From the NCBI GenBank assembly GCA_019550975.1, contig SDWH01000001.1, positions 248,001 through 312,000 on the forward strand: a stretch of 64,000 nucleotides of DNA. Reading direction: 5' to 3'. Shown piece after piece: positions 37,745 to 64,000 of the stretch (position 1 is its first letter; each line of letters begins with the position of its first letter). Origin of the DNA: Bacteroidales bacterium SW299 (GTDB lineage Bacteria > Bacteroidota > Bacteroidia > Bacteroidales > Bacteroidaceae). The notes under the pieces are model-generated. The model did not search any database and had not been told where the DNA came from. It saw only the letters and a list, made by a program, of their open reading frames with translations. The translations under genes and the position numbers were made by a program.

Positions 37745-37939
37745 CTTACAGACTTACAGATTACAGTATTACAAAAAGCTGATATTCGTCTGTATCCGAT
37801 GGAATATAGAGGTTATAATATATATTATATATAAATATATTTATATATAATATATATTATAAAATTATTTACTAATGTTTTTGCTGATGAAAGGAGCTTT
37901 TATCTCAGAAAAGCAAACTGTAATCTGTAAGACTGTAAG
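37745..37939. repeat. Large inverted repeat enclosing an all-AT palindrome
   Basis: The 23-bp arms 37745-37767 and 37917-37939 match in 22 positions as inverted copies and are built of CTTACAG units. The 50-bp perfect palindrome 37813-37862 lies between them, roughly in the middle. A related CTTACAGTCTTACAG string occurs at 44093-44107. The intervening DNA has no open frame that I trust. Confidence 0.75.
37813..37862. repeat. Perfect 50-bp palindrome made only of A and T
   Basis: The two halves 37813-37837 and 37838-37862 are exact reverse complements with no loop. The centre reads AAATATATTT. This can extrude as a cruciform. It lies between the mutase gene and the C69 dipeptidase gene. Confidence 0.95.
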
Positions 37940-37978
37940 GCTGTAAGGAAGAAGAGGGGCGGCACGCACGCTTTTCAT

Positions 37979-38058
37979 GCACATTCCTGCATGTTTCTGC
38001 ACGTTTCTGCACATTTTTGCAAATTTCTGCACGTTTCTGCGCGTCCGGGCACGTCTGC
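37979..38058. repeat. Degenerate tandem repeat of about 11-12 bp
   Basis: Units like TTTCTGCACG recur about six times (TGCATGTTTCTGCACG, then TTTCTGCACATTTTTGCA, then AATTTCTGCACGTTTCTG). Both strands have open stretches, but they only mirror the repeat and I do not call a gene. Confidence 0.55.
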
Positions 38059-49705: not shown

Positions 49706-50401
49706 TCAGTCAATCTTTTTTACTCGGAAACCGGTCACCTGCACATGGTTTTCCAGCAGACGGAGGCCGAAGTTTCCGTCACACTGGCCTTCCTTCACGG
49801 CATAGCGGAAAAGTTCTTCCCCGTCCACGCTATACGTCGTAACCCCTTCCTCCACACGGATGCGGATATTCATCCAGCGGTTGGGCTTCAGCAGGTGGGC
49901 TTCGTCGGTATACTCCTTAATGACGGGACGGGTCACATCATCCTTCGTATCCATGCCCTGTCCGAAATATTCGCGGAAACGGGTCGTTGAGTTATGGTTC
50001 CCCCCATAGCCCACATACATCAGCGTGAGCGACTTGTACCGCTGGAAGATTCCCATCCTCCATCCTGCCCGCGCATAAAGGTCGCCGGGATGCTGGGGGT
50101 CGTTGGCTCCCCAGAAACAATTCAGGTCACTCAGCCGGTCGCAAGCCCCTCCCTGCATCAGCACACACGCACGATACGCAATCTCGTAATGTCCGGTCAG
50201 ACGGGGCGTATACCACAAGGTCACCCCTTTCGGCGAAACGATGTCCAGCGTATCGCCCGCCACCTCAATGCTCATCTGCCCGGAATGATCCTCGGCCTTC
50301 CAATACTTCAGCGAAACCTGCTGCGCATGAAGGCACGCCGCCGGGCAGCACAACGCCAGAACTCCCGCAAGATTTCTTATCAGATTCCTTTTCATCCCCA
50401 T
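49706..50401 (-). CDS. Secreted DUF6250-like (concanavalin-fold) protein
   Basis: The 231-residue protein has a signal peptide (LAGVLALCCPAACLHAQ). The body is a beta sandwich, with WYTPRLTGHYEIAYRACVLM, CFWGANDPQHPGDLYARAGW, YVGYGGNHNSTTRFREY and ELFRYAVKEGQCDGNFGLRL. This fits the DUF6250 domain that is often found with carbohydrate-active enzymes. It may bind or clip a glycan. It begins 12 bp behind the nadE stop and ends 22 bp before the lyase start. An ATG two codons in (50395) is an alternative start. Confidence 0.72.
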   Translation of the reverse strand: MGMKRNLIRNLAGVLALCCPAACLHAQQVSLKYWKAEDHSGQMSIEVAGDTLDIVSPKGVTLWYTPRLTGHYEIAYRACVLMQGGACDRLSDLNCFWGANDPQHPGDLYARAGWRMGIFQRYKSLTLMYVGYGGNHNSTTRFREYFGQGMDTKDDVTRPVIKEYTDEAHLLKPNRWMNIRIRVEEGVTTYSVDGEELFRYAVKEGQCDGNFGLRLLENHVQVTGFRVKKID

Positions 50402-50413
50402 GACTTTTACTTG

Positions 50414-52351
50414 CTACCCCTGCAACTCTTCGCACTCCTTCAGCCACAAAGCCGCACTCGCATCGCTCGGCATACGCCAGTCGCCGCGGGGGCTGAGCGA
50501 CACGGAACCCACCTTCGGGCCGTCGGGCAGGCACGAACGCTTGAACTGCTGAGAGAAGAAGCGTCGGAAGAAGATGGTCAGCCATTTCTTGATGGTTGTA
50601 CTGTCGTATGTGTTTCGGAAAGCAATCTCGGCCAGGTAATAGATCTTTGCCGGACGCGCGCCGAAACGGAGGAAATGATACAGGAAGAAGTCATGCAGCT
50701 CATACGGCCCTACCAGGTCTTCGGTCTTCTGCCTGATGTTTCCGTTCTCGTCCGCCGGAATCAGTTCCGGACTGATGGGCGTGTCGATGATGTCGAGCAG
50801 GGTGTTGCGCGAAAGCGTGTCCACGCCGGTCTGCGCCACCCATCCCACCAGGTAGCGCACCAGCGTCTTGGGGATGCTGGCGTTCACCCCGTACATCGAC
50901 ATGTGGTCGCCGTTGTAGGTGGCCCATCCGAGAGCCAGCTCCGAAAGGTCGCCCGTACCGATAACCAGCGCCCCGATCTTGTTTGCATAGTCCATCAGCA
51001 CCTGCGTGCGTTCGCGCGCCTGGCCGTTTTCGTAGGTCACGTCGTGCACCGACATGTCTTGCCCGATATCCTGGAAATGCTGGATGCAGGCATCCTTGAT
51101 GCTTATCTCCTTTGGCGTGACCTGCAGCGAAGCCATCAGCGAAAGCGCATTGTTATAGGTGCGGTCGGTTGTTCCGAATCCCGGCATCGTGATGCCCGTA
51201 ATCCCCTTGCGCGGCAAGCCCAGCTTGTCGAAGGTTTTCACGCACACCAGCAGGGCCAGCGTAGAATCCAGTCCGCCGGAAATGCCCACCACCACACTCT
51301 TGCAGCCGGTATGCACCAGACGCTTGGCAAGGCCTGCCACCTGTATGGAGAATATTTCCTCGCAGCGCTCGTCAAGCTGCCTGCTCCCCGACGGAACAAA
51401 CGGATGCGGGTCGACGCTCCGACTCAATGTCAGCTCGCGCGAAGCCACCAGTTCGGCCGACACCCTCAGAGGCTGGCCGGAAGCGTTTGCCCGGACACTG
51501 GCGGCAAAAGTGGTGTTTACCAGACGCTCCCCGCGCAGACGCTCCACATCAATCTCGCTCACCACCAGCTGCTCCTCGAACGAGAAACGCTCGGAAGCCG
51601 CCAGCAGGTTGCCGTTTTCATAAATCAGACCGTTTCCGGCAAACACCACATCGGTTGTAGACTCTCCGAAACCCGAAGAGGCAAACACATATCCCGCCAG
51701 GCATCGCGCCGACTGCTGGGCGAGCAAAGAGCGGAGATAAGCGTGCTTGCTGATATTCTCCGTATCGGCCGACAGGTTGAAGATGATCTCGGCTCCCTTC
51801 AGAGCCAGTCCGGAACTGGGCGGTATGGGCGCCCATACATCCTCGCAAATCTCCACGCCGAAGCATGTGTCGGACGTGTCGAAAAGAATGTTCGCGGTGA
51901 GCGGAACAAGCTGGCCGCACAGACGGACCGTCGCATTGTCCGGAAGCGTGGAAGCAGAGGCAAACCATCGCTGCTCGTAAAACTCTTTATAGTTGGGAAG
52001 ATAAGTCTTCGGAACCACACCCAGTATCTTGCCCTTCTGAAACACCACGGCACAGTTCATAAGCACCGGCCCGGCCGTTACGGGCATGCCGACAATGGAA
52101 ATGATGTCGAGCTGGCGCGTGTTGTTCATCACCTGCATCAGAGCGAACTCAGCCTGCTCGAGCAGCAGGGACTGGGCAAACAGATCGGCGCACGAATAGC
52201 CCGTCAGCGAAAGTTCCGGAAACACCACAATCTGCACGCCCTTGCCGTCGGCAATCACGATCTGCTTCTCTATTTCCTGCGCATTGAACTTGCAGTCAGC
52301 AACCTTTACAGAGGGAACGGCTGCCGCAACCTTTACAAAACCATATTTCAT
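50414..52351 (-). CDS. nadE: Glutamine-hydrolysing NAD synthetase
   Basis: The 645-residue enzyme makes NAD from nicotinic acid adenine dinucleotide. The N-terminal nitrilase-like domain supplies ammonia; its Glu (FPELSLTGYSCADLF), Lys (VVPKTYLPNYKEFYEQRWF) and Cys (GVEICEDVWAP) are all present. The synthetase domain has the ATP motif GISGGLDSTLALL. The start at 52351 gives MKYGFVKVAAAVPSVKVADC; the longer frame is not supported. A -7 box lies 20 nt upstream. The two genes downstream may be co-transcribed but have unrelated functions. Confidence 0.95.
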   Translation of the reverse strand: MKYGFVKVAAAVPSVKVADCKFNAQEIEKQIVIADGKGVQIVVFPELSLTGYSCADLFAQSLLLEQAEFALMQVMNNTRQLDIISIVGMPVTAGPVLMNCAVVFQKGKILGVVPKTYLPNYKEFYEQRWFASASTLPDNATVRLCGQLVPLTANILFDTSDTCFGVEICEDVWAPIPPSSGLALKGAEIIFNLSADTENISKHAYLRSLLAQQSARCLAGYVFASSGFGESTTDVVFAGNGLIYENGNLLAASERFSFEEQLVVSEIDVERLRGERLVNTTFAASVRANASGQPLRVSAELVASRELTLSRSVDPHPFVPSGSRQLDERCEEIFSIQVAGLAKRLVHTGCKSVVVGISGGLDSTLALLVCVKTFDKLGLPRKGITGITMPGFGTTDRTYNNALSLMASLQVTPKEISIKDACIQHFQDIGQDMSVHDVTYENGQARERTQVLMDYANKIGALVIGTGDLSELALGWATYNGDHMSMYGVNASIPKTLVRYLVGWVAQTGVDTLSRNTLLDIIDTPISPELIPADENGNIRQKTEDLVGPYELHDFFLYHFLRFGARPAKIYYLAEIAFRNTYDSTTIKKWLTIFFRRFFSQQFKRSCLPDGPKVGSVSLSPRGDWRMPSDASAALWLKECEELQG

Positions 52352-52370
52352 ATCTACATCTTTTAATGCA

Positions 52371-52378
52371 CAAAAATA
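52371..52378 (-). promoter_or_regulatory. -7 box of nadE
   Basis: TATTTTTG on the minus strand matches TAnnTTTG. A TTTG at 52404-52401 lies 22 bp upstream, a little far. Transcription would start near 52364. Confidence 0.5.
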
Positions 52379-52485
52379 AGCAATATTCAGACAACAGGAG
52401 CAAAGTTCGCCCTTTTTTCGTCCGCCCGAAGGCGCCCGCATGCAAAGACAAAAGATGCCGTCTGATTCCGGCAAAAAAATGACCC

Positions 52486-52561
52486 GTCATCTTCATCAGT
52501 CTTTCCCATCATCCTCATCAAAACAAGCCGTCATCTTCATCAAGATTACACGTCATTTTCA
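52486..52561. repeat. 22-bp-period repeat array between nadE and the Fur gene
   Basis: The core GTCATCTTCATCA occurs at 52486 and 52530, with a variant (ATCATCCTCATCA, 11 of 13 matches) at 52508 and a shorter one (GTCATTTTCA) at 52552. The starts are exactly 22 bp apart. The 9-bp stretches between cores differ. The array is preceded by CCGGCAAAAAAATGACC, which is also seen before the array at 61900. No gene lies in 52379-52637. Confidence 0.75.
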
Positions 52562-52637
52562 ACACCTCCTCCAGCCATGTCCGGCAAAGGAAGAAAGCAA
52601 GAAAGAAAGTAAAAAAATCAAAAAAAGCAGGCAAGGC

Positions 52638-52668
52638 TTTGCCAATATAAAAAATCTTTATACATTTG
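52638..52668 (+). promoter_or_regulatory. Promoter of the Fur-family gene
   Basis: TTTG (52638-52641) and TACATTTG (52661-52668) are spaced by 19 bp. The start is predicted near 52675, about 37 nt before the ATG at 52712. Confidence 0.8.
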
Positions 52669-52711
52669 CCATCGAATTAGAATTGTAACAATTACATAAT
52701 TGAAAGAAAAG

Positions 52712-53134
52712 ATGAACGTTTACGAATACCTGCTTAATTACAACATCAAGCCATCCGTACAACGCATTGCAATTATGGACTATTTGCTCAAGCATGAAAC
52801 GCATCCGTGTATCGATGAGATTTATATGGCACTGTGCAAAGAGATTCCGACTCTTTCAAAGACTACGGTCTACAACACCCTGAAGCTGTTTGTAGAACAC
52901 GGAGCCGCAAAGATGCTGACGATTGACGAGCGCAATGCCTGCTTTGACGGAAACACAAGCCTGCACGCACACTTCCTGTGCAGAAGCTGCGGAAAGATTT
53001 TCGACATGCCGCTGAAAGAAGAGCTCACCGACACAGACAAGCTGGGCGAAGAAGGGTATGTGGTTGAAGAAGTCCACTACTACTACAAAGGAATCTGTCC
53101 GGAATGCGCGAAACAGAAGAGCAAAAAAAACTGA
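52712..53134 (+). CDS. Fur/PerR-family regulator
   Basis: The 140-residue protein has the Fur winged helix (NIKPSVQRIAIMDYLLKHET, and the recognition helix in SKTTVYNTLKLFVEHGAAKM), a His-rich metal region (HAHFLCRSCGKIF), and two CxxC pairs (CRSC and CPEC) typical of the structural zinc site. The placement next to rubrerythrin and the lack of iron-uptake genes suggest a peroxide-sensing PerR-like role, which is inferred. The start at 52712 is used; a TTG at 52700 would add four residues. The gene has a full promoter of its own. Confidence 0.9.
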   Translation: MNVYEYLLNYNIKPSVQRIAIMDYLLKHETHPCIDEIYMALCKEIPTLSKTTVYNTLKLFVEHGAAKMLTIDERNACFDGNTSLHAHFLCRSCGKIFDMPLKEELTDTDKLGEEGYVVEEVHYYYKGICPECAKQKSKKN

Positions 53135-53187
53135 TTTTGAGTTTTAACTAACTGCAACATAAACTAATAACTTAAACTTTTAGACGT

Positions 53188-53739
53188 ATGAAAAAATTTA
53201 TCTGTACTGTATGTGGTTACATCTACGAAGGTGAAACAGCTCCTGAAAAGTGTCCGCTCTGCAAGGCTCCGGCATCTAAGTTCAAAGAAATGGAAGAAAC
53301 CGCCGGCGGACTGACTTTCGCTGACGAACATGTCATCGGCGTTGCCAAAGGCTGCGATGAAGAAATGATCAAGGACCTGAACAACCACTTCATGGGCGAA
53401 TGCACTGAAGTAGGAATGTATCTGGCCATGAGCCGTCAGGCCGACCGCGAAGGCTATCCCGAAATTGCTGAAGCTTTCAAACGCTATGCTTGGGAAGAAG
53501 CTGAACACGCTTCAAAATTCGCCGAACTGCTGGGCGACTGCGTATGGGACACCAAAACCAACCTGGAAAAGCGCATGAACGCTGAATGCGGAGCTTGCGA
53601 AGACAAGAAGCGTATCGCTACCCGCGCAAAACAGCTGAATCTGGATGCTATCCACGATACGGTTCACGAAATGGCTAAAGACGAAGCTCGCCACGGCAAA
53701 GGCTTCGAAGGTCTGTACAACAGATATTTCAAGAAATAA
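53188..53739 (+). CDS. Rubrerythrin with N-terminal rubredoxin domain
   Basis: The 183-residue protein starts with a rubredoxin-type iron site (Cys6, Cys9, Cys22 and Cys25 in CTVCG and CPLC) and continues with a ferritin-like diiron domain ([34 protein letters not shown], and [13 protein letters not shown]). This is the reverse order of classical rubrerythrin, as in peroxide-reducing proteins of anaerobes. It lies 53 bp behind the Fur-family gene, whose regulation it probably shares. A strong terminator follows. Confidence 0.93.
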
Positions 53740-53764
53740 TCACTGTCTGCCAGACATCTGAAAA

Positions 53765-53829
53765 AAACGCAGGCTGACGCTGAAAACAAACCGATGTGCA
53801 TACGTCGGGAAGAAGCGCCGGCCTGCGTT
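53765..53829. terminator. Bidirectional terminator after rubrerythrin
   Basis: AAACGCAGGC (53765-53774) pairs with GCCTGCGTTT (53820-53829) with a longer internal loop. T- and A-runs flank both sides. It ends the fur-rubrerythrin unit and the convergent small gene. Confidence 0.65.
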
Positions 53830-53856
53830 TCGCTTTTTCTGCAAGTGCCGCCTTCC

Positions 53857-54054
53857 TTATTTCTTTCTGCGGAACACCAGCCGGTAAACGGTGAGAACCA
53901 GATCGACGGCCACAACCAGCCCCCATATTACGAACGCCACGGTAAGCACCGTATTTTCCGGATTCCACAGCATATAGATGCAAGCCAGCGCACACAGATC
54001 AACCAATCCGCCCAAAACGCTGGAGCGTGAAAACAATCCTCTTGCCATAATCAT
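53857..54054 (-). CDS. Small two-pass membrane protein
   Basis: The 65-residue protein has two membrane segments (about 13-31 and 38-59) and a basic C-terminus (YRLVFRRKK). It has no named domain that I recognise. Two in-frame ATGs lie at the 5' end (54054 and 54048). The frame, the coding look and the convergent terminator make it a likely real gene, with unknown role. Confidence 0.6.
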   Translation of the reverse strand: MIMARGLFSRSSVLGGLVDLCALACIYMLWNPENTVLTVAFVIWGLVVAVDLVLTVYRLVFRRKK

Positions 54055-54129
54055 TTTCTTTTTTCAGTTATACAACACATTTCAGCAGGCAAAAGTAATG
54101 ATATTCTCACAAAGAAAAAACAGGATGCG

Positions 54130-55500
54130 TCAGCGTACTTCCCAATACTTGTCACAGAAGTTCAGATAATCCGGTTCGGGGTGCGTTCCAAACAGCAGAG
54201 CATAGAAAGAAGTGCCGCTCAGTTTTGCCTTGCGCACCGACTCCAGAAGCGCATCATCGGCGGGAGGAAGCTCAAAGTCGGAGATAAGCACCACGTCCGA
54301 ACGCTTCCATCCCTGGTTGCGAAGCATCACCAACGCCTCGCCGACGGCCGGACGTATATCCGTACCTCCGTCAAAGCTGTGCGCAAGAAACTCGGCCAGC
54401 ATCGGAAGGTCGGTTCTGAAATCGCGCACCAGCAGGGTCCGCACTTCTTCGGCAAAATTGATGACATAGCATCTTCTGTGTGTCTTTTCCACAAGCCGGG
54501 CAATGGCAAGCACCGCCGACTTGGCAAGCATCTCTCTCCGTCCCCCCATCGAACCGGAGGTGTCGACACAAACGATAAAAGGCCCTTGCCCGCTCACGGG
54601 GTGACGCTCCGAACGGCTCGAACTGTCAACGGCCACCGAACGGCTATCGAACACCTGCAGGCGCTTTTCCACATATTTCCGGAGAAAGACCGGATGGAGC
54701 CTCTCGTCAGACAGGCAGCAATATTCTGCCGGAAGCAGGCTGTTCAGGTTATCCCCCACGGTTATTCCTTCAATATCGCTCTGCACGGCATGGCGCACCA
54801 GGCTTTCTTTCGATATGCCCGAGAGCGAATCAAACGACATGCGCTCCCCCGCACTCCGCTTTCCAAGCACACGGACCAGTTCGCGGATAGAGGCATTCTT
54901 TTCCATCTGCCGCTCGTAAGGAAATATCCTGCGGTAAAGTTCGGGATGATTCAGCATCAGCCACTTGATCCGGGAACCCGGCTGGCTGGCCTCGGTCTTC
55001 AGCCCGAAACGCTTGTCGAGCAGGATAAAGCCCCGGCAAAGCTCGTCGATGTGGTGATACTGGTAGTCGTATTCCTTGGCGTTCAGCAGACGATGCCACT
55101 TGTCCAGAAAACTCTCCTGCAATTCCTTCCGCTCTTTTCCTGCCTGAGGAAGCATCTCCATCCGCCCGATATAATAGTCTATATCCAGTTCAAACAGCGG
55201 ATAACGCTTTGCAAATGCCGGCTTCATCCGCTTCATGAAATCCAGCATGGCGGAAGGAGAAAGCGGCTCGCTCTCATAAAACACCTCCCACTCGGGAGTA
55301 TAGCGCGAGTAGAACTCCTGCAAGGAAGGCGATGTCTTCTGATAATAACCCCACACATACGCTTCCAGCTCGCGCGGAAACACGGTCTGCTCGCGCAAGC
55401 AGTCCTCAAGCTTCGCATAGCATTCAGCGCGAAGACGCTCCAAATAGACCGCCTTCAGGTCTTTCAGACGGATATTCCTGATTCTCTTTACGGTAGGCAT
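54130..55500 (-). CDS. VWA-domain protein, ViaA-like
   Basis: The 456-residue protein has a long helical N-terminal part and a C-terminal von Willebrand A domain with the metal site FIVCVDTSGSMGGRREM, then YVINFAEEVRTLLVRDF and SFDGGTDIRPAVGEAL. It resembles ViaA, the partner of RavA, which helps build or mend protein complexes. The gene begins inside the end of the RavA-like gene with a 77-bp overlap, an unusually long one; no later ATG lies near the N-terminus, so either the overlap is real or a non-ATG start is used. Confidence 0.85.
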   Translation of the reverse strand: MPTVKRIRNIRLKDLKAVYLERLRAECYAKLEDCLREQTVFPRELEAYVWGYYQKTSPSLQEFYSRYTPEWEVFYESEPLSPSAMLDFMKRMKPAFAKRYPLFELDIDYYIGRMEMLPQAGKERKELQESFLDKWHRLLNAKEYDYQYHHIDELCRGFILLDKRFGLKTEASQPGSRIKWLMLNHPELYRRIFPYERQMEKNASIRELVRVLGKRSAGERMSFDSLSGISKESLVRHAVQSDIEGITVGDNLNSLLPAEYCCLSDERLHPVFLRKYVEKRLQVFDSRSVAVDSSSRSERHPVSGQGPFIVCVDTSGSMGGRREMLAKSAVLAIARLVEKTHRRCYVINFAEEVRTLLVRDFRTDLPMLAEFLAHSFDGGTDIRPAVGEALVMLRNQGWKRSDVVLISDFELPPADDALLESVRKAKLSGTSFYALLFGTHPEPDYLNFCDKYWEVR

Positions 55501-57052
55501 GCTTCAACTCTTCAAACTCGTTGCGGTAGCGGCCGGCTGCTCCCTGCTGGGCCTGCAACATCCGCACCATCTTTTCTTTTTCTTTTGCGGAAAGGAAAAG
55601 GTGCTCCTGGCAATACTGCTGCTCCGCATCCAGCAGGTCCCGGCAGCCGCCTTCCACATTCGAAAGCATCCGGTCCAGATGAATGAACTTTTCCTCTACA
55701 GCCTTTTCTGAAATCCCTTCGCTTACGGGAACCGCATCGCCTCCCGGCACACACAACAAAGGATATTCGTAGTCATTGACAAGCACCGACCGGCATCCCC
55801 TGCGCAAAGAATAAATCTTCGACTGGGGAACTTTATTCCGCATCGAGGGATCGTATTTCTTCAGTATATAGCAGTTCGTTTTATACTTGTCCTTATGCAT
55901 ATAGAACAGCCTGCCCCTGTCGTTCAGATTCTGATAATCATCGGCAAACAGCAGCAGACGCCCGGGAATGCGCGCTTTCTCTATCTGGTAATAAAAATTG
56001 TCGACCAGCTGAAGAGCCGGATCACGGCTTTCATTCAAACCGGAAACGGAAGCCAGCTCACTTTTCAGATTCTCCAGTTCACGGCCCACACTCGCAAGAT
56101 TCAGCATGTATCCCTCCATGCTTTTCCTCACCGAAGCCATCACCGCCTCCGCAGCCCAGTCAATCTGGTCCGGCTCGCCCCAAAGGCAATGCGCCAGCAG
56201 CAGGCAGTCGGACAAACGGACCGTATCCGATCCGTTCAGAAAGGCAGAAGCCCGCATCAGCCTGACCAGCTTTTTCCACCGCCGGTCGGACACATAGAGA
56301 TAAGGCACTCCCGACGCATCATTCTCGATACGTCCGTTGTATTCTTCGATCTGCTCGCGCAGCAGATGGATAACCTCCAATACAGAATAATGTACCTTTA
56401 TCTCCGAAATGCGCCGCTGCCATTCCGCATATTCTTCCCTGTCTACCGGCAGATCCTCCGGAACAACCGGCTCGCTCTCGTCCGAAGAAAGAACCATCCG
56501 GTCGAAGTCGGACACATCCTCCACGCCTCCCACAAGCAGACGGATCAGAAAACGGTCATACAGCGCCTCCAGTCCCTGCCCCTGTGCCGGAAGTTCATTC
56601 GAAGCCGCTATCAGTCCCTTCAATGGAATGCGGAGCAGATTGTTTCCGTTACGGTAGACTTTTTCGTTAATGACTGTCAGCAAAGCGTTCTGAATGGCAG
56701 GTCCCGCTTTCCATATTTCATCAAGAAACACTACATCAGCCGTCGGAAGATAGCCCTCTGTTACCCGCTCATACTTGTCCAGGTCCTTCAGCCTGGAGAT
56801 AGACACCGGACCGAAAATCTCATCGGGAGTACTGAAACGGGACATCAGGTATTCAAAAGCCGTACCATGACGGAAAGCCAGTTTAAGCCGGCGCGCCACC
56901 ATACTCTTCGCCACGCCCGGAGGACCGAACAGAAAGATGCTCTCGCCCGCCATAGCCGACAAGAAAGACAAGGCTATGACATGCTCTTTTCCATACACCC
57001 GCTCATTCAATACTTCCAGCAATTGCCGGACACGAACTCTCAACGTTTCCAT
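55424..57052 (-). CDS. MoxR-family AAA+ ATPase, RavA-like
   Basis: The 542-residue protein (start METLRVRVRQLLEVLNERVY) has Walker A GPPGVAKS at 43-50, a FEYLMSRFSTPDEIFGPVS segment with the MoxR signature, Walker B VVFLDEIWKAGPAIQNALL, and the RavA-type LARA-like C-terminal region. MoxR ATPases work with VWA-domain partners as chaperone-like pairs. It overlaps the end of the EamA gene by 13 bp, and the ViaA-like gene starts inside its 3' end, so the three genes are one unit. Confidence 0.88.
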   Translation of the reverse strand: METLRVRVRQLLEVLNERVYGKEHVIALSFLSAMAGESIFLFGPPGVAKSMVARRLKLAFRHGTAFEYLMSRFSTPDEIFGPVSISRLKDLDKYERVTEGYLPTADVVFLDEIWKAGPAIQNALLTVINEKVYRNGNNLLRIPLKGLIAASNELPAQGQGLEALYDRFLIRLLVGGVEDVSDFDRMVLSSDESEPVVPEDLPVDREEYAEWQRRISEIKVHYSVLEVIHLLREQIEEYNGRIENDASGVPYLYVSDRRWKKLVRLMRASAFLNGSDTVRLSDCLLLAHCLWGEPDQIDWAAEAVMASVRKSMEGYMLNLASVGRELENLKSELASVSGLNESRDPALQLVDNFYYQIEKARIPGRLLLFADDYQNLNDRGRLFYMHKDKYKTNCYILKKYDPSMRNKVPQSKIYSLRRGCRSVLVNDYEYPLLCVPGGDAVPVSEGISEKAVEEKFIHLDRMLSNVEGGCRDLLDAEQQYCQEHLFLSAKEKEKMVRMLQAQQGAAGRYRNEFEELKHAYRKENQEYPSERPEGGLFGASSR

Positions 57053-57945
57053 TTGACATAAATTGAAGGAGTCATCTTCTTCTGATGAAGCAGGACACTG
57101 CACGTCTGAAGCACCACAGACAGGATAATCAGTCCCAGTCCGAAATAAAAGCTCGCGCCCAGATCCTTTGCTTCATGAAAAATAATCATCGCCCCGATGA
57201 TGCTATAGATAGGCTCCAGATTGTAGCTCAAATTGACCGTAAAGGCCGAAACCTTCTTCAGCACCTGAATCTGCAGGATGTAAAGCACAACCGTACAGAC
57301 GGATGCAAGACAAAACAGATAAACGAAATCCTTCATCTCGGGCACAATCGTCCCTACCGGGAAATAATGCAGATAGAAGGGCAACACGCACGATATGCCG
57401 ACAAATCCGCCTGCCATCTCATAAAGCAGCATGGTGCTCGAGGTATATCCCACCGAAACCTTCTTGTTGACAATGGTGAACAAAGAGGCCAAAGCGGATG
57501 AAACCACTCCCATGCAGATGCCCAAGCGGTAGCGCGTATCAAAATGAAATATCAGCACAATTCCCATCACCGCAACCAGGCTGAACAGAATCTCGCGCAC
57601 AGATATGCGGTGGCGGTTGATTGCCGGCTCGAACAAGGCCGTAAAAATGCTCATAAGCGAAAGGCATACCACGCCGATAGAAACATTCGAGGCCTTGATG
57701 CTCCCGTAAAAGAAAAGCCAGTGCGCCGAAAGCAGCAGCCCCACACCGCCTATCTTCAGAACATCGCGGAGCGTCACCTTGCGAAGCTTCTTCCACACGG
57801 CAAGCAAAACCGCAAACATCAGCGAGGCAAGCATCATCCGATACCACACGAGCAGCGCCTCGTTCAAAGTGATCAGCCTTCCGAATATTCCCGTTCCTCC
57901 GGCTATCAGAATAGAAAGATGAAGTTTGACAAAAGCTTCTTTCAT
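57040..57945 (-). CDS. EamA/DMT-family membrane transporter
   Basis: The 301-residue protein has ten membrane segments and two EamA halves, as in drug/metabolite exporters. Examples are LHLSILIAGGTGIFGRLITL, VGLLLSAHWLFFYGSIKASN, and the second-half segment LSYNLEPIYSIIGAMIIFHE. The substrate cannot be told. It lies upstream of ravA and overlaps its start by 13 bp, so translation of ravA may depend on it. The genes have no evident functional link. Confidence 0.88.
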   Translation of the reverse strand: MKEAFVKLHLSILIAGGTGIFGRLITLNEALLVWYRMMLASLMFAVLLAVWKKLRKVTLRDVLKIGGVGLLLSAHWLFFYGSIKASNVSIGVVCLSLMSIFTALFEPAINRHRISVREILFSLVAVMGIVLIFHFDTRYRLGICMGVVSSALASLFTIVNKKVSVGYTSSTMLLYEMAGGFVGISCVLPFYLHYFPVGTIVPEMKDFVYLFCLASVCTVVLYILQIQVLKKVSAFTVNLSYNLEPIYSIIGAMIIFHEAKDLGASFYFGLGLIILSVVLQTCSVLLHQKKMTPSIYVKWKR

Positions 57946-57965
57946 ACCCTAACTCAGTTTAAATC

Positions 57966-58002
57966 AAAGGGCTGCACCAAATACAGATTGATACAGCCCT
58001 TT
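57966..58002. terminator. Hairpin between the carboxyltransferase gene and the EamA gene
   Basis: AAAGGGCTG (57966-57974) pairs with CAGCCCTTT (57994-58002). On the plus strand a T-run follows; on the minus strand the tail is TTTGATTT, so it may stop the carboxylase operon only partly. Confidence 0.6.
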
Positions 58003-58042
58003 TTCTACCAAATGATAAGTCTAATTCTAAAATCGAGCGGCA

Positions 58043-59575
58043 TTAGAGCGGCATGTTGCCGTGCTTCTTCGGCGGATTGCTCTGGCTCTTGTTCTGAGTC
58101 ATCTCCAAAGCCTGAATCAGCTTGAAGCGTGTATCCTTCGGAAGAATGATTTCGTCGATATATCCCTGTTCAGCCGCACGGTACGGGTTAGAGAACTTTT
58201 CCTTATAGTCTTCGATGGCCTGCGCCTTTTCCTCGGGCGTCGCCTTGCGGTAAAGAATGTTCACGGCACCGTCTGCACCCATCACGGCAATTTCTGCCGT
58301 AGGATATGAGAAGTTCACATCCGCGCCGATCGGCTTACTGTTCATCACGATATAGGCGCCGCCATAGGCCTTGCGCGTAATCACTGTGATTTTAGGCACG
58401 GTTGCCTCGGCATAGGCATAGACAATCTTCGCACCGTGACGGATGATTCCGTTGTGCTCCTGCGCACATCCCGGAAGGAAGCCCGGAACATCCTCGAACG
58501 TAACGATAGGAATATTGAAACAGTCGCAGAAGCGGATGAAACGTGAAGCCTTGTCAGAAGCGTCGATATCGAGCACACCTGCCAGATAAGCCGGCTGATT
58601 GGCTACAATACCTACCGAACGTCCGCCCAGACGTGCAAATCCCACCACAATGTTCTTTGCAAAATGCGGCATCACCTCGAAGAAATACTGGTTATCTACA
58701 ACCGGCTCGATGATGTTCTTGATGTCATACGGCATATTCGGATCGTCCGGAATGACAGACATCAGCGATTCGTCGGCACGGCGGACATCATCTGTGCATG
58801 GAACCATCGGCGCATCTTCCATGTTGTTTGAAGGAAGGAAGCTAAGCAGTTCGCGGATGCTCATCAGAGTTTCCTCTTCCGTATCGCAAAGAAAATGAGT
58901 CACGCCGCTTTTGCTGCTGTGCGTATAGGCACCGCCCAGTTCCTCTTTGTCGACTTCTTCGTGTGTCACGGCCTTTACCACATCCGGGCCGGTAATGAAC
59001 ATGTGGCTCTTTTCCTTCACCATGAAAATGAAGTCGGTCAGGGCCGGAGAATAACATGCGCCTCCCGCACACGGTCCGAGAATGGCCGAAATCTGCGGAA
59101 TGACACCCGAGGCAATGGTGTTCTGATAGAAAATGGAAGCATATCCGGAAATGCTGCCGACACCTTCCTGAATGCGTGCGCCTCCCGAATCGTTCAGAGC
59201 GATGACCGGAGCACCGTTCTTCAAGGCCAGTTCCTGCACCTTCACAATCTTTTTTGCACCGGTTGTGCTCAGCGTGCCGCCGAATACGGTGAAATCATAT
59301 GCATACACATACACCAGCCGCCCGTCGATTTTTCCATAGCCGCAAACGATGCCGTCACCGGGAATGTGCTTCTTATCCATTCCGAAATCAGAACAGTGAT
59401 GAACTACGAATTTGTCTATTTCATTGAAAGTGCCCTTGTCGAGCAACATGTCAATCCGTTCACGTGCGGTCATGTGACCGTTTGCGTGCTGTTTTTCCAC
59501 ACGCTCCACACCGCCGCCTTGCGAAGCCAGCTTGTCAAGCTCCTCAAATTTCTTATATTGTTCTTCTGCTGTCAT
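58043..59575 (-). CDS. Acyl-CoA carboxylase carboxyltransferase subunit (propionyl-CoA type)
   Basis: The 510-residue protein carries the two carboxyltransferase halves, with TDFIFMVKEKSHMFITGPDV, GGAYTHSSKSGVTHF and the acyl-CoA site RKAYGGAYIVMNSKPIG. The family includes propionyl-CoA carboxylase beta and methylmalonyl-CoA decarboxylase alpha. In Bacteroides such a complex is linked to propionate formation through methylmalonyl-CoA, so it may run in either direction. It is the last gene of the operon, 2 bp behind the biotin carrier gene. Confidence 0.93.
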   Translation of the reverse strand: MTAEEQYKKFEELDKLASQGGGVERVEKQHANGHMTARERIDMLLDKGTFNEIDKFVVHHCSDFGMDKKHIPGDGIVCGYGKIDGRLVYVYAYDFTVFGGTLSTTGAKKIVKVQELALKNGAPVIALNDSGGARIQEGVGSISGYASIFYQNTIASGVIPQISAILGPCAGGACYSPALTDFIFMVKEKSHMFITGPDVVKAVTHEEVDKEELGGAYTHSSKSGVTHFLCDTEEETLMSIRELLSFLPSNNMEDAPMVPCTDDVRRADESLMSVIPDDPNMPYDIKNIIEPVVDNQYFFEVMPHFAKNIVVGFARLGGRSVGIVANQPAYLAGVLDIDASDKASRFIRFCDCFNIPIVTFEDVPGFLPGCAQEHNGIIRHGAKIVYAYAEATVPKITVITRKAYGGAYIVMNSKPIGADVNFSYPTAEIAVMGADGAVNILYRKATPEEKAQAIEDYKEKFSNPYRAAEQGYIDEIILPKDTRFKLIQALEMTQNKSQSNPPKKHGNMPL

Positions 59576-59577
59576 AA

Positions 59578-60099
59578 TTATTCTTCGTCTTTATTTATCA
59601 CATCCAGAGTCATGATCACCTGGTTGCTGTTTACTGAATCACCTTCATTCACCAAGATTTCCTTCACCGTACATTCGCTGTTCACCTTGTAGTTGCTCTG
59701 CATTTTCATGGCTTCGATCACAGCTACGATGTCGCCCGCTTCCAGACGGTCGCCCACCTTTACGGGGATCTTGACCACTTTTCCCGGCATGGGCGAAACA
59801 ATCTTGTCCTGCTGTTTTTCTTCGCCACCTTTGCGCATACGCAAATACTTGGCTTGAGAATCGATAATGTCGATGTTATACGACTGATAATGGGCATTGA
59901 CGGTATAACTCTTTCCGCCGTCCTTGCGTATAAGTTCGGCATTATACGATTTGCCGTTATGAAGGATAGAGCAGCTTCCGTTCTCAGCCATCACAATGTC
60001 TACATCGTAAGGAACGCCGTCGATTGTAAGCTGTACCTTGTTTCCTTCCTTGTTGACCAATGACACATCAGCCACTCTGTCACCTATATGTATTTCCAT
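59578..60099 (-). CDS. Biotin carboxyl carrier protein
   Basis: The 173-residue protein has a first beta-rich part and a C-terminal biotinyl domain with the target Lys132 in VIEAMKMQSNYKV. A Gly/Pro-rich hinge (SPMPGKVVKIPVKVGDRLEA) opens the domain. It carries the biotin arm between the carboxylase and carboxyltransferase subunits encoded on both sides, 15 bp behind the first and 2 bp before the second. Confidence 0.93.
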   Translation of the reverse strand: MEIHIGDRVADVSLVNKEGNKVQLTIDGVPYDVDIVMAENGSCSILHNGKSYNAELIRKDGGKSYTVNAHYQSYNIDIIDSQAKYLRMRKGGEEKQQDKIVSPMPGKVVKIPVKVGDRLEAGDIVAVIEAMKMQSNYKVNSECTVKEILVNEGDSVNSNQVIMTLDVINKDEE

Positions 60100-60114
60100 A
60101 ATTTCCTGCTTTAT

Positions 60115-61626
60115 TTAGATTCTCAATACACCCTTCTTCAAGCCAAACTCACGCCAGCGGCTGATCGGACGGTTGTCCGTAGAAGCCGTCTTGTTTTCTT
60201 CGAGGTTCATCAAATAATCGATGTAGGCCGCAATCATCGCGATGTTTTCAGTTTCCTCCTCCTTCTTGTTAGCCCACTTGCGGAGTATATCCTGATGCTT
60301 GGGTATAAACAGCGTATCATAACGGCCTTCCACAAAATCGGGCACGTTCATGATATGGCGGAGGTATCCGATATTGGTTTTCAATCCTGTGATCTTGTAT
60401 TCATAAAGCACACGGCGCATCCGCTCGATGGCGAACTGGCGGGTTGTGGCCCACACAATCAGCTTGCCGATCATCGGATCATAATAAATAGGGATTTCGT
60501 AGCTCTCATACACATAGCTGTCGATGCGCACGCCGATGCCGTTCGGTTCAATCAGCTGACGGATAACGCCCGGCGAAGGCATGAAGTTATTTTCCGAGTC
60601 TTCGGCGCAGATGCGGCATTCGATCGCATGTCCGCGCTGCACCAGCTCTTCCTGCTTAAGATGAAGCGGCTCGTTGTTGGCAATGCGGAGCTGCTCTTTC
60701 ACCAAATCCACGCCAAGCACTTCTTCCGTAATCGGGTGCTCCACCTGCAAACGGGTGTTCATTTCAAGAAAATAAAAGTTGCGGTGCTTGTCGACAAGGA
60801 ATTCGATTGTGCCTGCTCCCTTGTAATGTACGGCTTTGGCGGCCGCCACGGCAGCCTCTCCCATCTTCTGTCGCAGTTCGGGAGTTACAAAAGGCGAAGG
60901 AGTTTCTTCAACTATTTTCTGATTGCGCCGCTGAATGGAGCATTCGCGCTCGTAAAGATGGATTGCGTTTCCAAAGTTGTCCCCCAAGATCTGGAACTCG
61001 ATATGGTGCGGCTCTTCTACAAACTTTTCCAGATAAACAGTATCGTCACCGAACGATGACATGGATTCCGAACGGGCCGTATTGTATGCCTCTTCCACTT
61101 CGTCCTCACTGTGAATCAGACGCATGCCTTTTCCGCCTCCTCCCATGGAAGCCTTCAGCATTACGGGATAGCCGATGCGGTTGCAGATTTCTTTCGCCTC
61201 TTCAACGCTCTGCAAAGGCTGCTCTGTGCCGGGAACCACCGGAACGCCCGCAGCAATCATGTGCTTGCGGGCAGAAATCTTGTCCCCCATCGCGTCCATC
61301 GTTTCCGGATCCGGACCAATGAAGATGATGCCTTCCTGACGGCAGCGGCGGGCGAACTCTGAATTTTCCGACAGAAATCCATACCCCGGATGGATGGCGT
61401 CCACTCCATGACGCTTGGCCGCCATGATAATCTTGTCGATGTTCAAGTAACTTTCGCGAGATGCCGCCGGTCCTATCAGACAGGCTTCATCCGCATAAAG
61501 TACGTGGCGGGCTGTCCTGTCGGCCTCAGAGAAAACTGCAACGGTGCGGATGCCCATTTCGCGGCACGAACGCATCACACGCACAGCTATTTCACCACGA
61601 TTAGCGATCAATACTTTGTGTATCAT
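60115..61626 (-). CDS. accC: Biotin carboxylase subunit
   Basis: The 503-residue ATP-grasp enzyme loads CO2 onto biotin. The N-terminus is IHKVLIANRGEIAVRVMRSC, the glycine loop is KASMGGGGKGMRLIHSEDEV, the active-site region is VEEPHHIEFQILGDNFGNAI, and EMNTRLQVEHPITEEVLGVD is the catalytic block. The C-terminal extension (GLKTNIGYLRHIMNVPDFVE, and after) is longer than in E. coli AccC. It is the first gene of the operon, with a promoter about 110-140 nt upstream. Confidence 0.94.
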   Translation of the reverse strand: MIHKVLIANRGEIAVRVMRSCREMGIRTVAVFSEADRTARHVLYADEACLIGPAASRESYLNIDKIIMAAKRHGVDAIHPGYGFLSENSEFARRCRQEGIIFIGPDPETMDAMGDKISARKHMIAAGVPVVPGTEQPLQSVEEAKEICNRIGYPVMLKASMGGGGKGMRLIHSEDEVEEAYNTARSESMSSFGDDTVYLEKFVEEPHHIEFQILGDNFGNAIHLYERECSIQRRNQKIVEETPSPFVTPELRQKMGEAAVAAAKAVHYKGAGTIEFLVDKHRNFYFLEMNTRLQVEHPITEEVLGVDLVKEQLRIANNEPLHLKQEELVQRGHAIECRICAEDSENNFMPSPGVIRQLIEPNGIGVRIDSYVYESYEIPIYYDPMIGKLIVWATTRQFAIERMRRVLYEYKITGLKTNIGYLRHIMNVPDFVEGRYDTLFIPKHQDILRKWANKKEEETENIAMIAAYIDYLMNLEENKTASTDNRPISRWREFGLKKGVLRI

Positions 61627-61732
61627 GCTTTATGTTTTAGTTATTACTTCCGTTTGACAATCCGGCACGAACTCTTCGGCCGGACAAAGCCGCTTGCGCC
61701 AGACAAATCGGCACAGCAACCTTAAATCTGTG

Positions 61733-61765
61733 CAAAAATAACAAAAAAAGAAACATCAGTCCAAA
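61733..61765 (-). promoter_or_regulatory. Promoter of the acyl-CoA carboxylase operon
   Basis: TTTG (61765-61762) and TATTTTTG (61740-61733) on the minus strand are spaced by 21 bp. The start is predicted near 61726, so the leader before accC has about 100 nt. Confidence 0.65.
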
Positions 61766-61899
61766 GAACGGCCTTTTTTTTGCCGAAAGGGATGTTTTTA
61801 TCTCCAAAAACACGAAGAAAACCGACAGAAGGAAAAGCATATACAGGAAACGCAAACTCCAGTTTGCAAACAACGGCAGCAACCGGCAGACAAAATGAC

Positions 61900-61965
61900 C
61901 GCTCATCTTGCTCAAGACGGGCGGTCATTTTCGGCAATACGGGCGGTCATCTTGCCCATTATGTG
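61900..61965. repeat. 22-bp-period repeat array upstream of accC
   Basis: Units starting CGCTCATCTTGCTCA (61900), CGGTCATTTTCGGCA (61922) and CGGTCATCTTGCCCA (61944) are exactly 22 bp apart. The stretch before them (CCGGCAGACAAAATGACC) resembles the stretch before the array at 52486. The array lies between the phosphoesterase stop and the carboxylase promoter. The remainder of 61766-61899 shows nothing else. Confidence 0.72.
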
Positions 61966-61976
61966 GGGCAAATCCG

Positions 61977-62921
61977 TCACTTGGTTCTTTTCACGGTGTG
62001 AATCACCTTTCCCTCCTTGTCTATCATGTGCAGACAGAGTTCATTCTTGTCGAGCGTGATGAGCGAAAAGCCGGAAGCGTCGCTGCAGAACTGTGTTCCC
62101 TCGACCGGCTTCACCTTGCGGCTCAGCGAGCCCGAAGTGTTCACAACATAGTCAATCCCGCTTCCGGGCATGCGTATGTGCTGGAAGTTATGGATGTGCC
62201 CGCAAAGATACATGTCGACATTCTTATGCTTGCGGAGAAGCGAGTCGACACGCTTCTGCATATCCGTCCGTTCCGAATCATTCTTGTCCGTATCCGCATA
62301 AATGGGATGGTGGCCTACCACAAGCACCCAGTCCTCCTTTGCAGCCGTAAGCACCGAATCAAGCCAGGCCAACTGTTTGTCGACGTCCTGCAGATGCGCG
62401 TCCGGATATTTTTCCGTGTCTTTACGGTATTTGTCGAGCAAGGGAGGAGTGTCGATCATCACCAGGCGCAATGTCGCTCCATCCTCCTCCATCGTTTTCG
62501 TATAATAACGCCCGGCTATCTGCCAGCGTGCACTTACACCTGCATAGTCAAGCACGGCCTGCGTATTTCCCCGGTACTCGTGATTTCCAAGAATCGGATA
62601 CCAAGGCAACATCAGATCCGGGTGGCTGTAAATAAGCTCATAGTTGGTCATCCACAAAGGGTCATCCACACTGCGCACTCCTTCGAAATGATGCACATCG
62701 CCGGCGGCAACCACAAATTCAATGTCTATGGTTTCAGCCATCTTCCCCATCAGTTCCGCAATCGGTTTCTGGTCGTAATATCCGTTACGTCCCAAATCGT
62801 TAGCCAGATAGAAATTCAAAGGCTTTTCAAGCGGTTTCCAGTCGGCCGGTGTCTGTGCGAAAGCGGAAAACGCAAACAAAGCTACTCCCAAAGTGCTTAA
62901 AGTTCTTTTCAATGAAATCAT
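61977..62921 (-). CDS. Secreted metallophosphoesterase, purple acid phosphatase-like
   Basis: The 314-residue protein has a signal peptide (LSTLGVALFAFSAFA) and the calcineurin-like metal motifs: FYLANDLGRNGYYDQKPIAE, VVAAGDVHHFEG, PILGNHEYRGN, VVGHHPIYAD, and CGHIHNFQHI. The order and spacing fit tartrate-resistant acid phosphatases. The start at 62921 is chosen because it gives a clean signal peptide; the frame reaches 63050 with no support. A weak -7-like box (CAACTTTG on the minus strand at 62969-62962) lies about 40 nt upstream. It is a single gene between two terminators or arrays. Confidence 0.85.
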   Translation of the reverse strand: MISLKRTLSTLGVALFAFSAFAQTPADWKPLEKPLNFYLANDLGRNGYYDQKPIAELMGKMAETIDIEFVVAAGDVHHFEGVRSVDDPLWMTNYELIYSHPDLMLPWYPILGNHEYRGNTQAVLDYAGVSARWQIAGRYYTKTMEEDGATLRLVMIDTPPLLDKYRKDTEKYPDAHLQDVDKQLAWLDSVLTAAKEDWVLVVGHHPIYADTDKNDSERTDMQKRVDSLLRKHKNVDMYLCGHIHNFQHIRMPGSGIDYVVNTSGSLSRKVKPVEGTQFCSDASGFSLITLDKNELCLHMIDKEGKVIHTVKRTK

Positions 62922-63028
62922 ACTAAAAACTGTTTTAAATGTTATTTTCGTTTTGTCATGGCAAAGTTGGGTCCGAAAACTGAAATAAATATGAAAAAAT
63001 CCCAGCCGCCACGAAAAAACAATTAAAA

Positions 63029-63063
63029 AAGCCCGGATGCTTTTTATCAATATATCCGGGCTT
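63029..63063 (-). terminator. Terminator after the beta-helix gene
   Basis: AAGCCCGGAT (63029-63038) pairs with ATCCGGGCTT (63054-63063) around a 15-nt loop. On the minus strand TTTTTTAATTG follows. Confidence 0.85.
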
Positions 63064-63109
63064 CCAAAGAAATGAATGTATATCAGCTGTGTCTCAAAAA
63101 GAGCCTGAA

Positions 63110-64000
63110 TTATTCTGCCCCGTATGCACCGAAATGATTCTGGGGAGCCGGAGATTTATATGCAGTTCCGTTAATGGTCAGACCCGTTGTTCCGAAAAGC
63201 GGAGCCATATCCGATGCGCCTGCGCCATAACCGCCTGTCAGGGCCGGAGAACCCGCCTGCAAATGGAAATCCCAGTTATCATTATAAACGTAGCTGGTCA
63301 ACGGAGTAGCATTGATGTCAAAATTGACGAACATCGGGTCTTTGCTGTCATTTTCCGTTGCAATGATGCTGTTCGCATCCACTACACCGTCATAATAATC
63401 ATCGTGGTCATAATTATATCCTTCCCACGAATAGTTGATTCCCTGCTCATAAACATAGTTCGGATCTACCTCCTGAGCGCCCGATGCATAGTAGTTATAG
63501 TCGATAACCGAATTTACATTATCATATCCGCCTTCCACGTTGGCCAGGTTATCCAGCGATGGAGTCTGTGCGCGGAACTTGCAGTTCACCATCAGGTTGT
63601 TGTATACATGAACCCTCACATTCTCTTCAGCATAGATACTTCCTCCCTTATCGCTGTCACGGCGCCATCCGGCATTGATCATCGTGTTGTTGTACGCCTG
63701 GATACGTGCCTGAGAACGCACGTCACTCTGGTCAGAACTTGAAAGCTTCAGTCCGTTAGTGTTGGGGGCAAACATCACATTGCCGGCAACATCCACTGCA
63801 CATCCAGACTTCACATTGACCGCTTCCTCGCCTGTTTCACCGTTTGCAACAAACAGATTGTTCATGATAATCGCATTGCCTCCCATCATATAAATGGCAT
63901 CCGACACGCCATTGCGCAAAATGGAATTCATGATAACATAGCGGCCATTCACATTGTTTGTTGTAATCTGCGGATAGGCATCGTCGCCGGCTTCGTAATA
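63110..64000 (-). CDS. Right-handed beta-helix (DUF4957/DUF5123-like) protein, start outside window
   Basis: At least 296 residues of this protein are present; the frame is open past the window edge at 64000, so the GTG at 63952 is only internal. The sequence has repeated short strands rich in Asn (GRYVIMNSILRNGVSDAIYM, MGGNAIIMNNLFVANGETGE, RIQAYNNTMINAGWRRD, VHVYNNLMVNCKFRA), the look of a pectate-lyase-like parallel beta helix. The tail ends HFGAYGAE. Such proteins occur in Bacteroidales polysaccharide-use loci and are usually secreted. I cannot name the substrate. Confidence 0.8.
   Translation of the reverse strand, partial: YYEAGDDAYPQITTNNVNGRYVIMNSILRNGVSDAIYMMGGNAIIMNNLFVANGETGEEAVNVKSGCAVDVAGNVMFAPNTNGLKLSSSDQSDVRSQARIQAYNNTMINAGWRRDSDKGGSIYAEENVRVHVYNNLMVNCKFRAQTPSLDNLANVEGGYDNVNSVIDYNYYASGAQEVDPNYVYEQGINYSWEGYNYDHDDYYDGVVDANSIIATENDSKDPMFVNFDINATPLTSYVYNDNWDFHLQAGSPALTGGYGAGASDMAPLFGTTGLTINGTAYKSPAPQNHFGAYGAE

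Follow-up and report, generated by a model that had tools for sequence, protein, structure and literature searches.

The window (the whole stretch of 64,000 nucleotides analysed here) contains two short arrays of palindromic repeats. Array 2 occupies positions 61892..61953, has no strand, and consists of three 18-bp palindromic units at a 22-bp pitch in the gap between the 5' end of an accC-like biotin carboxylase gene (60115..61626, minus strand), its downstream neighbour, and the 3' end of a metallophosphatase-like gene (61977..63050, minus strand), which is about 24 bp away and lies outside the system. The units are at 61892-61909 (AAAATGACC/GCTCATCTT), 61914-61931 (AAGACGGGC/GGTCATTTT) and 61936-61953 (AATACGGGC/GGTCATCTT), with the spacer gctc between units 1 and 2 and cggc between units 2 and 3. 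Array 1 (52476..52559, also without strand) has four units at the same pitch (52476-52493, 52498-52515, 52520-52537 and 52542-52559) and is reported by TRF with a period of 22, 3.9 copies and a score of 81. It lies in the divergent gap between a nadE-like NAD synthetase ORF (50414..52474 as listed, minus strand, with the true start more likely near 52358) and a Fur-family regulator gene (52700..53134, plus strand); like accC, these genes merely flank the repeats. A preliminary description had reported array 2 as three units with a 22-bp step, akin to the array near 52486, and this is confirmed. The AAATGACC stretch that it placed ahead of the repeats forms the left half of unit 1. Elsewhere in the window, an AT-rich tandem repeat (period 16/28) and then a 10-bp repeat, TTTCTGCACG, are found at 37813-37876 and 37973-38044.

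The unit is an 18-bp imperfect palindrome made of AAAAY, an 8-bp core and RTTTT. The spacer is always 4 bp long while its sequence varies freely, and unit plus spacer thus give the 22-bp pitch; because the units are imperfectly palindromic, an array amounts to a series of 11-bp half-sites in alternating, inverted orientation. In the genome from which the window comes (G000), one half of the unit, CGTCATYTT, is fairly constant, and the other is drawn from a short list that includes AAAATGTCC, AAAATGAGC, AAAATAAGC, AAAACAAGC and AAAATTACC. The exact palindrome-type AAAAGACCGCGGTCTTTC occurs in a few units, and some units are inverted inside arrays. Three arrays of this genome (L047, L050 and L063) each carry one exact palindromic unit, AAAAGACCGCGGTCTTT(C/T), amid the usual ones. 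Four units are usual here (14 of 24 arrays by automatic detection), and unit number is typical of the clade: mostly four in G000 and G157, mostly three in G152 and G159, and mostly five, among the matches listed, in Phocaeicola mediterraneensis (G164, which we infer to be Bacteroides/Phocaeicola mediterraneensis Marseille-P2644T). In the G164 arrays that were read, with both ends pooled, A opens the outermost half-site every time (40 of 40) but the next one inward only 11 times in 40, arguing that the array is a bounded object with two-fold symmetry. The symmetric boundary, the fixed spacer length and the free spacer sequence together point to a defined nucleoprotein complex as the probable basis of the repeats, rather than slippage.

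The relation between the two halves of a unit is less simple. Perfectly palindromic cores number 4 in G157 where half-word frequencies predict 14.6 (n=98), covariation within the unit core is mostly nil, with the central pair avoided in G000 and G157, and core self-complementarity exceeds chance only in G152. Units resemble each other within arrays more than between arrays in G152, where subfamilies are present, and slightly so in G000, but not in G157. A search of 80 loci for palindrome repeats of any pitch gave a weak excess at 21-22 bp.

Both arrays belong to a dispersed family. The pattern GTCATYTT-N14-GTCATYTT (at most 3 mismatches) has 13 matches in the window, the majority inside or at the edges of the two arrays, compared to a mean of 2.2 and a maximum of 7 in dinucleotide shuffles. 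In the 3.87-Mb genome, which is assigned to Phocaeicola on the basis of named relatives, a 31-base pattern finds 21+21 = 42 matches at about 28 loci, with none for the reversed control; the array count for this genome rests on such pattern matches. The genome-wide family suggested in the preliminary description is thus borne out and extends through the genus, and a few genomes from other families of Bacteroidota share the frame. In the near-complete G164 chromosome, arrays lie along most of the length, among the matches listed.

The arrays are intergenic, overlapping only with short or doubtful ORFs, and their neighbours are unrelated housekeeping genes (panB, panD, fbp, ileS, clpB, rlmN, pyrB, ttcA, folK, rpsO, nadE/fur and accC, the names being assigned by reading translations). 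The 65 classified arrays occupy 32 codirectional, 17 divergent and 16 convergent gaps, while ordinary gaps sampled in G164 divide 70/27/17 in the same order; array gaps are therefore near background, with a modest excess of convergent ones. Arrays sit somewhat closer to the 3' ends of genes, so that the link to gene ends raised in the preliminary description exists but is weak; the link to a regulator raised alongside it found no counterpart, and no binding protein or regulator for the arrays was identified. One further array (L057:4593-5095, G000:C16:46.7-47.2 kb) lies directly 3' of a second Fur-family gene, and two Fur-family genes of this genome therefore adjoin arrays.

Across the genus, each species has its own spelling of the 8-bp core. 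A search for two units of the frame AARAY-N8-RTYTT with one mismatch gave matches in 44 of 61 genus genomes, 28 of them with at least 10 matches and G157 with the maximum of 183 unit pairs; reversed-frame controls gave 0-10 per genome, and few or none in array-rich genomes. The core words are GCCT/GTCA in G157, GTCC/GAAC in G097, GCTT/GACG in G159, GCAA/GCAC in G164, and the groups GACA, GTGG/TTGC and ACGG in G152; Phocaeicola barnesiae DSM 18169 has one array in the G097 vocabulary. The G000 spelling is absent from the other genomes among 150 sampled in the family, but diverged versions are present in congeners. Because the words are species-specific, the exact G000-type pattern has no match in GTDB220 contigs or IMG/VR. 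Elsewhere in the order, frame matches are at control level apart from G502 and G213, which have clear arrays with other words, and G474, with 31 three-unit matches compared to 0 in the control (a pattern count alone). Other Bacteroidota families have arrays in a few genomes (G848, G871, G790, G911 and G602).

Among 2.9 million viral contigs, one exact three-unit match was found, beyond phage tail-like genes and possibly in host flank, and with this single match a phage- or virus-borne repeat was rejected. On the viral contig L275 (11516-11784), about 12 units form a composite run, likewise beyond phage tail-like genes. It is built of blocks that each repeat one word, GTGC/TTAC (four), GAAC/GTTC (three) and GACY/TGAT (four), adjoining three copies of a 50-bp tandem repeat.

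Comparison of orthologous gaps reveals gain, loss and respelling. The nadE-fur gap holds an array in G000 and in none of 29 congeners (30 genomes compared), and arrays have therefore been gained or lost. At other gaps, two species both have an array but share none of the words: upstream of ttcA in G000 and G157 (arrays L062 and L166), upstream of a large secreted-protein gene in G000 and G140, in the tRNA-Thr/rnz gap in G159 and G152, at L041/L226, and at L073/L214, where the three units also retain their pattern of orientations. In the accC/phosphatase gap, an uncultured relative (L086) has a respelled array of three units; the caecigallinarum group has an ordinary terminator-like hairpin at the position of array 2, and in mediterraneensis nothing can be recognised there.

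The clustering of units and the spelling peculiar to each species suggest that the arrays are landing platforms for a fast-changing putative DNA-binding factor. The leading explanation, held tentatively and at close to an even chance, is that they are dispersed non-coding protein-binding platforms that spread in a REP-like manner and co-evolve with a putative DNA-binding or mobilising protein. A dimer would recognise each 18-bp unit through its two inverted half-sites, each made of AAAAY and a short word, and the 22-bp pitch, equal to two helical turns, would place three to five dimers on one face of the DNA, where they could stack into a single complex. The arrays would spread and turn over between genes as REP-type extragenic repeats do, and the vocabulary of a genome would track the present specificity of this trans-acting protein, one that would shift by lineage; such changes in the proposed reader could explain why arrays at orthologous places are respelled. 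The role may be chromosome organisation, one of the functions suggested in the preliminary description, or selfish dispersal. In this picture the geometry, the dispersal between genes, the species vocabularies, the respelling at conserved positions and the gain and loss of arrays are observations, and the protein, its dimeric binding and stacking, and the role are inferences. The scarcity of palindromic cores in G157 is not what a simple symmetric dimer predicts, and the strong RNA hairpins formed by some arrays (see below) also speak against this reading.

The arrays could instead be non-autonomous mobile elements (MITE/REPIN-like), substrates of a putative transposase or recombinase, with the vocabularies reflecting bursts of a changing master copy. 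This is rather unlikely; in its favour are the presence or absence of arrays at orthologous gaps, their bounded symmetry with distinct outer half-sites, the G152 subfamilies, the sporadic occurrence in other Bacteroidota families and the intergenic placement toward 3' ends. The closest known comparison is with REP/BIME/REPIN elements and their RAYT (IS200-like Y1) transposases (PMC3116915, PMC2817692), which share with the arrays the dispersal of short extragenic palindromes, regular spacing, alternating orientation, lineage-specific sequences and presence/absence among relatives. The dispersed extragenic palindromes are likewise numerous, to judge from the loci in G000 and the unit pairs in G157. 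The arrays differ, however, in their fixed 22-bp pitch, fixed small unit number, frame of AAAAY/RTTTT around a variable 8-bp core, and lack of exact copies: no two arrays read from the same genome agree in full unit order, orientation and spacers, and the arrays therefore do not represent a fixed element in several copies. In addition, the G164 flanks that were read showed no consistent target-site duplication, and an orthologous position retained with every word replaced is not expected from simple insertion. A RAYT/Y1 transposase was rejected as the mobiliser: it is missing from most array-rich genomes, of the 61 genomes of the genus, 6 have PF01797, and the most array-rich ones (G157, G164, G200, G097, G194 and G196) all lack it.

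Less probable again is an action at the RNA level, in which transcribed hairpins serve as bidirectional terminators or stabilisers of mRNA 3' ends. The folding is strong in places: array 2 reaches -30.6 and -31.7 kcal/mol on the two strands (z -4.9 and -5.7), z falls to -9 and -10.6 in arrays of G164 and G152, and complementarity between the first and last units exceeds that of shuffles in G152 (p<0.001). One might also cite the 16 of 65 arrays in convergent gaps and the ordinary terminator hairpin that replaces array 2 in related species. However, the 17 arrays in divergent gaps have no gene end to act upon, the all-direct array L039 is unfolded (z +1.4), complementarity of first and last units is missing in G000, G157 and G164, and core self-complementarity stays at chance level save in G152. 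Intrinsic terminators in the strict sense, defined by 3'-end position, stable hairpin and U-tract, fit some arrays only and were rejected as a general identity.

The preliminary description had also proposed operator clusters. The operators of one conventional regulon might look like these arrays, with nearly identical palindromic sites in tandem at a spacing of two helical turns, and L062 and L166 do lie upstream of ttcA. Nevertheless, such a regulon is very doubtful: the neighbours share no function, every gap type is used, and many arrays are upstream of no gene. Simple-sequence bias or chance, which the A/T-rich frame might invite and which the preliminary description named as one result that would overturn its proposal, has a negligible probability, since the window exceeds its shuffles (13 matches to 2.2), the genome exceeds its reversed control (42 to 0), and reversed controls elsewhere are near zero against tens to hundreds of matches.

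Other known systems resemble the arrays in part. The Neisseria dRS3/NIME repeats (ATTCCC-N8-GGGAAT) have short inverted arms, a variable 8-bp core and intergenic arrays in common with them, but their arms are different, they border longer repeats and are not known to follow a 22-bp phasing, whereas the core vocabulary here is species-specific and common to the units of an array. At Tn7 and Mu ends and in iterons, a transposase or replication initiator has three to four or more tandem sites, each of about 22 bp and spaced by two turns, but these are direct repeats tied to one element or origin; array units are instead near-palindromic, orientation-free and scattered over the chromosome. Rfam gave no match above the gathering threshold in window positions 50000-64000.

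Returning to the protein-binding platform, one candidate reader came from the HU/IHF superfamily, namely HU-HIG (PF18291), which is expanded in Bacteroidota. Two genomes from another family of Bacteroidia, with differing gene surroundings, have an array about 110-350 bp upstream of an HU-HIG gene (L278:770-1153, minus strand; L279:1710-2093, plus strand), which made this protein an attractive lead. No HU-HIG gene was found near the other array loci examined, and in Phocaeicola the correlation of HU-HIG copy number with the number of arrays is weak and negative (rho -0.38, n=38); the candidate is therefore unsupported.

A more ambitious version of the platform model, possible though on balance not expected, is that these bounded arrays, phased by two turns, are phylum-wide chromosomal marks whose 8-bp species vocabulary is respelled throughout the genome when the trans-acting reader changes specificity. 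If true, this would be a self-renewing code of site and reader in bacterial chromosomes, without known counterpart. RAYT or insertion-sequence mobility is the usual explanation of extragenic repeats in bacteria; in contrast, the present family is widespread in common gut bacteria, lacks RAYT in most array-rich genomes, and keeps positions while sequence is replaced. No description of phased arrays in Bacteroidota was found in the literature searched; RepRanger includes REPs from two Flavobacterium genomes and one Thermoflavifilum genome, three of Bacteroidota in all, and phased arrays are not described in the passages found. The family merits attention because its geometry is strict, its distribution is wide and no described system found fits it. 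Should the arrays be read by a protein, they would provide a natural record of coordinated evolution of sites and reader in dozens of species, and would also add, for Bacteroidota, a so far unrecognised level at which chromosomes are organised or genomes are in conflict.

Palindrome arrays with a 21-22-bp pitch but unlike sequences, such as TTCCAAGGCTTGGAA, AAGTAAGATATCTTACTT and CAAAAGTTTTG, occur in the gap downstream of the phosphatase gene in other Bacteroidales (L118:3880-3945, L134:4190-4300, L111:4040-4140, L099:4170-4270 and L102:4110-4215), and are perhaps more families of the same kind.
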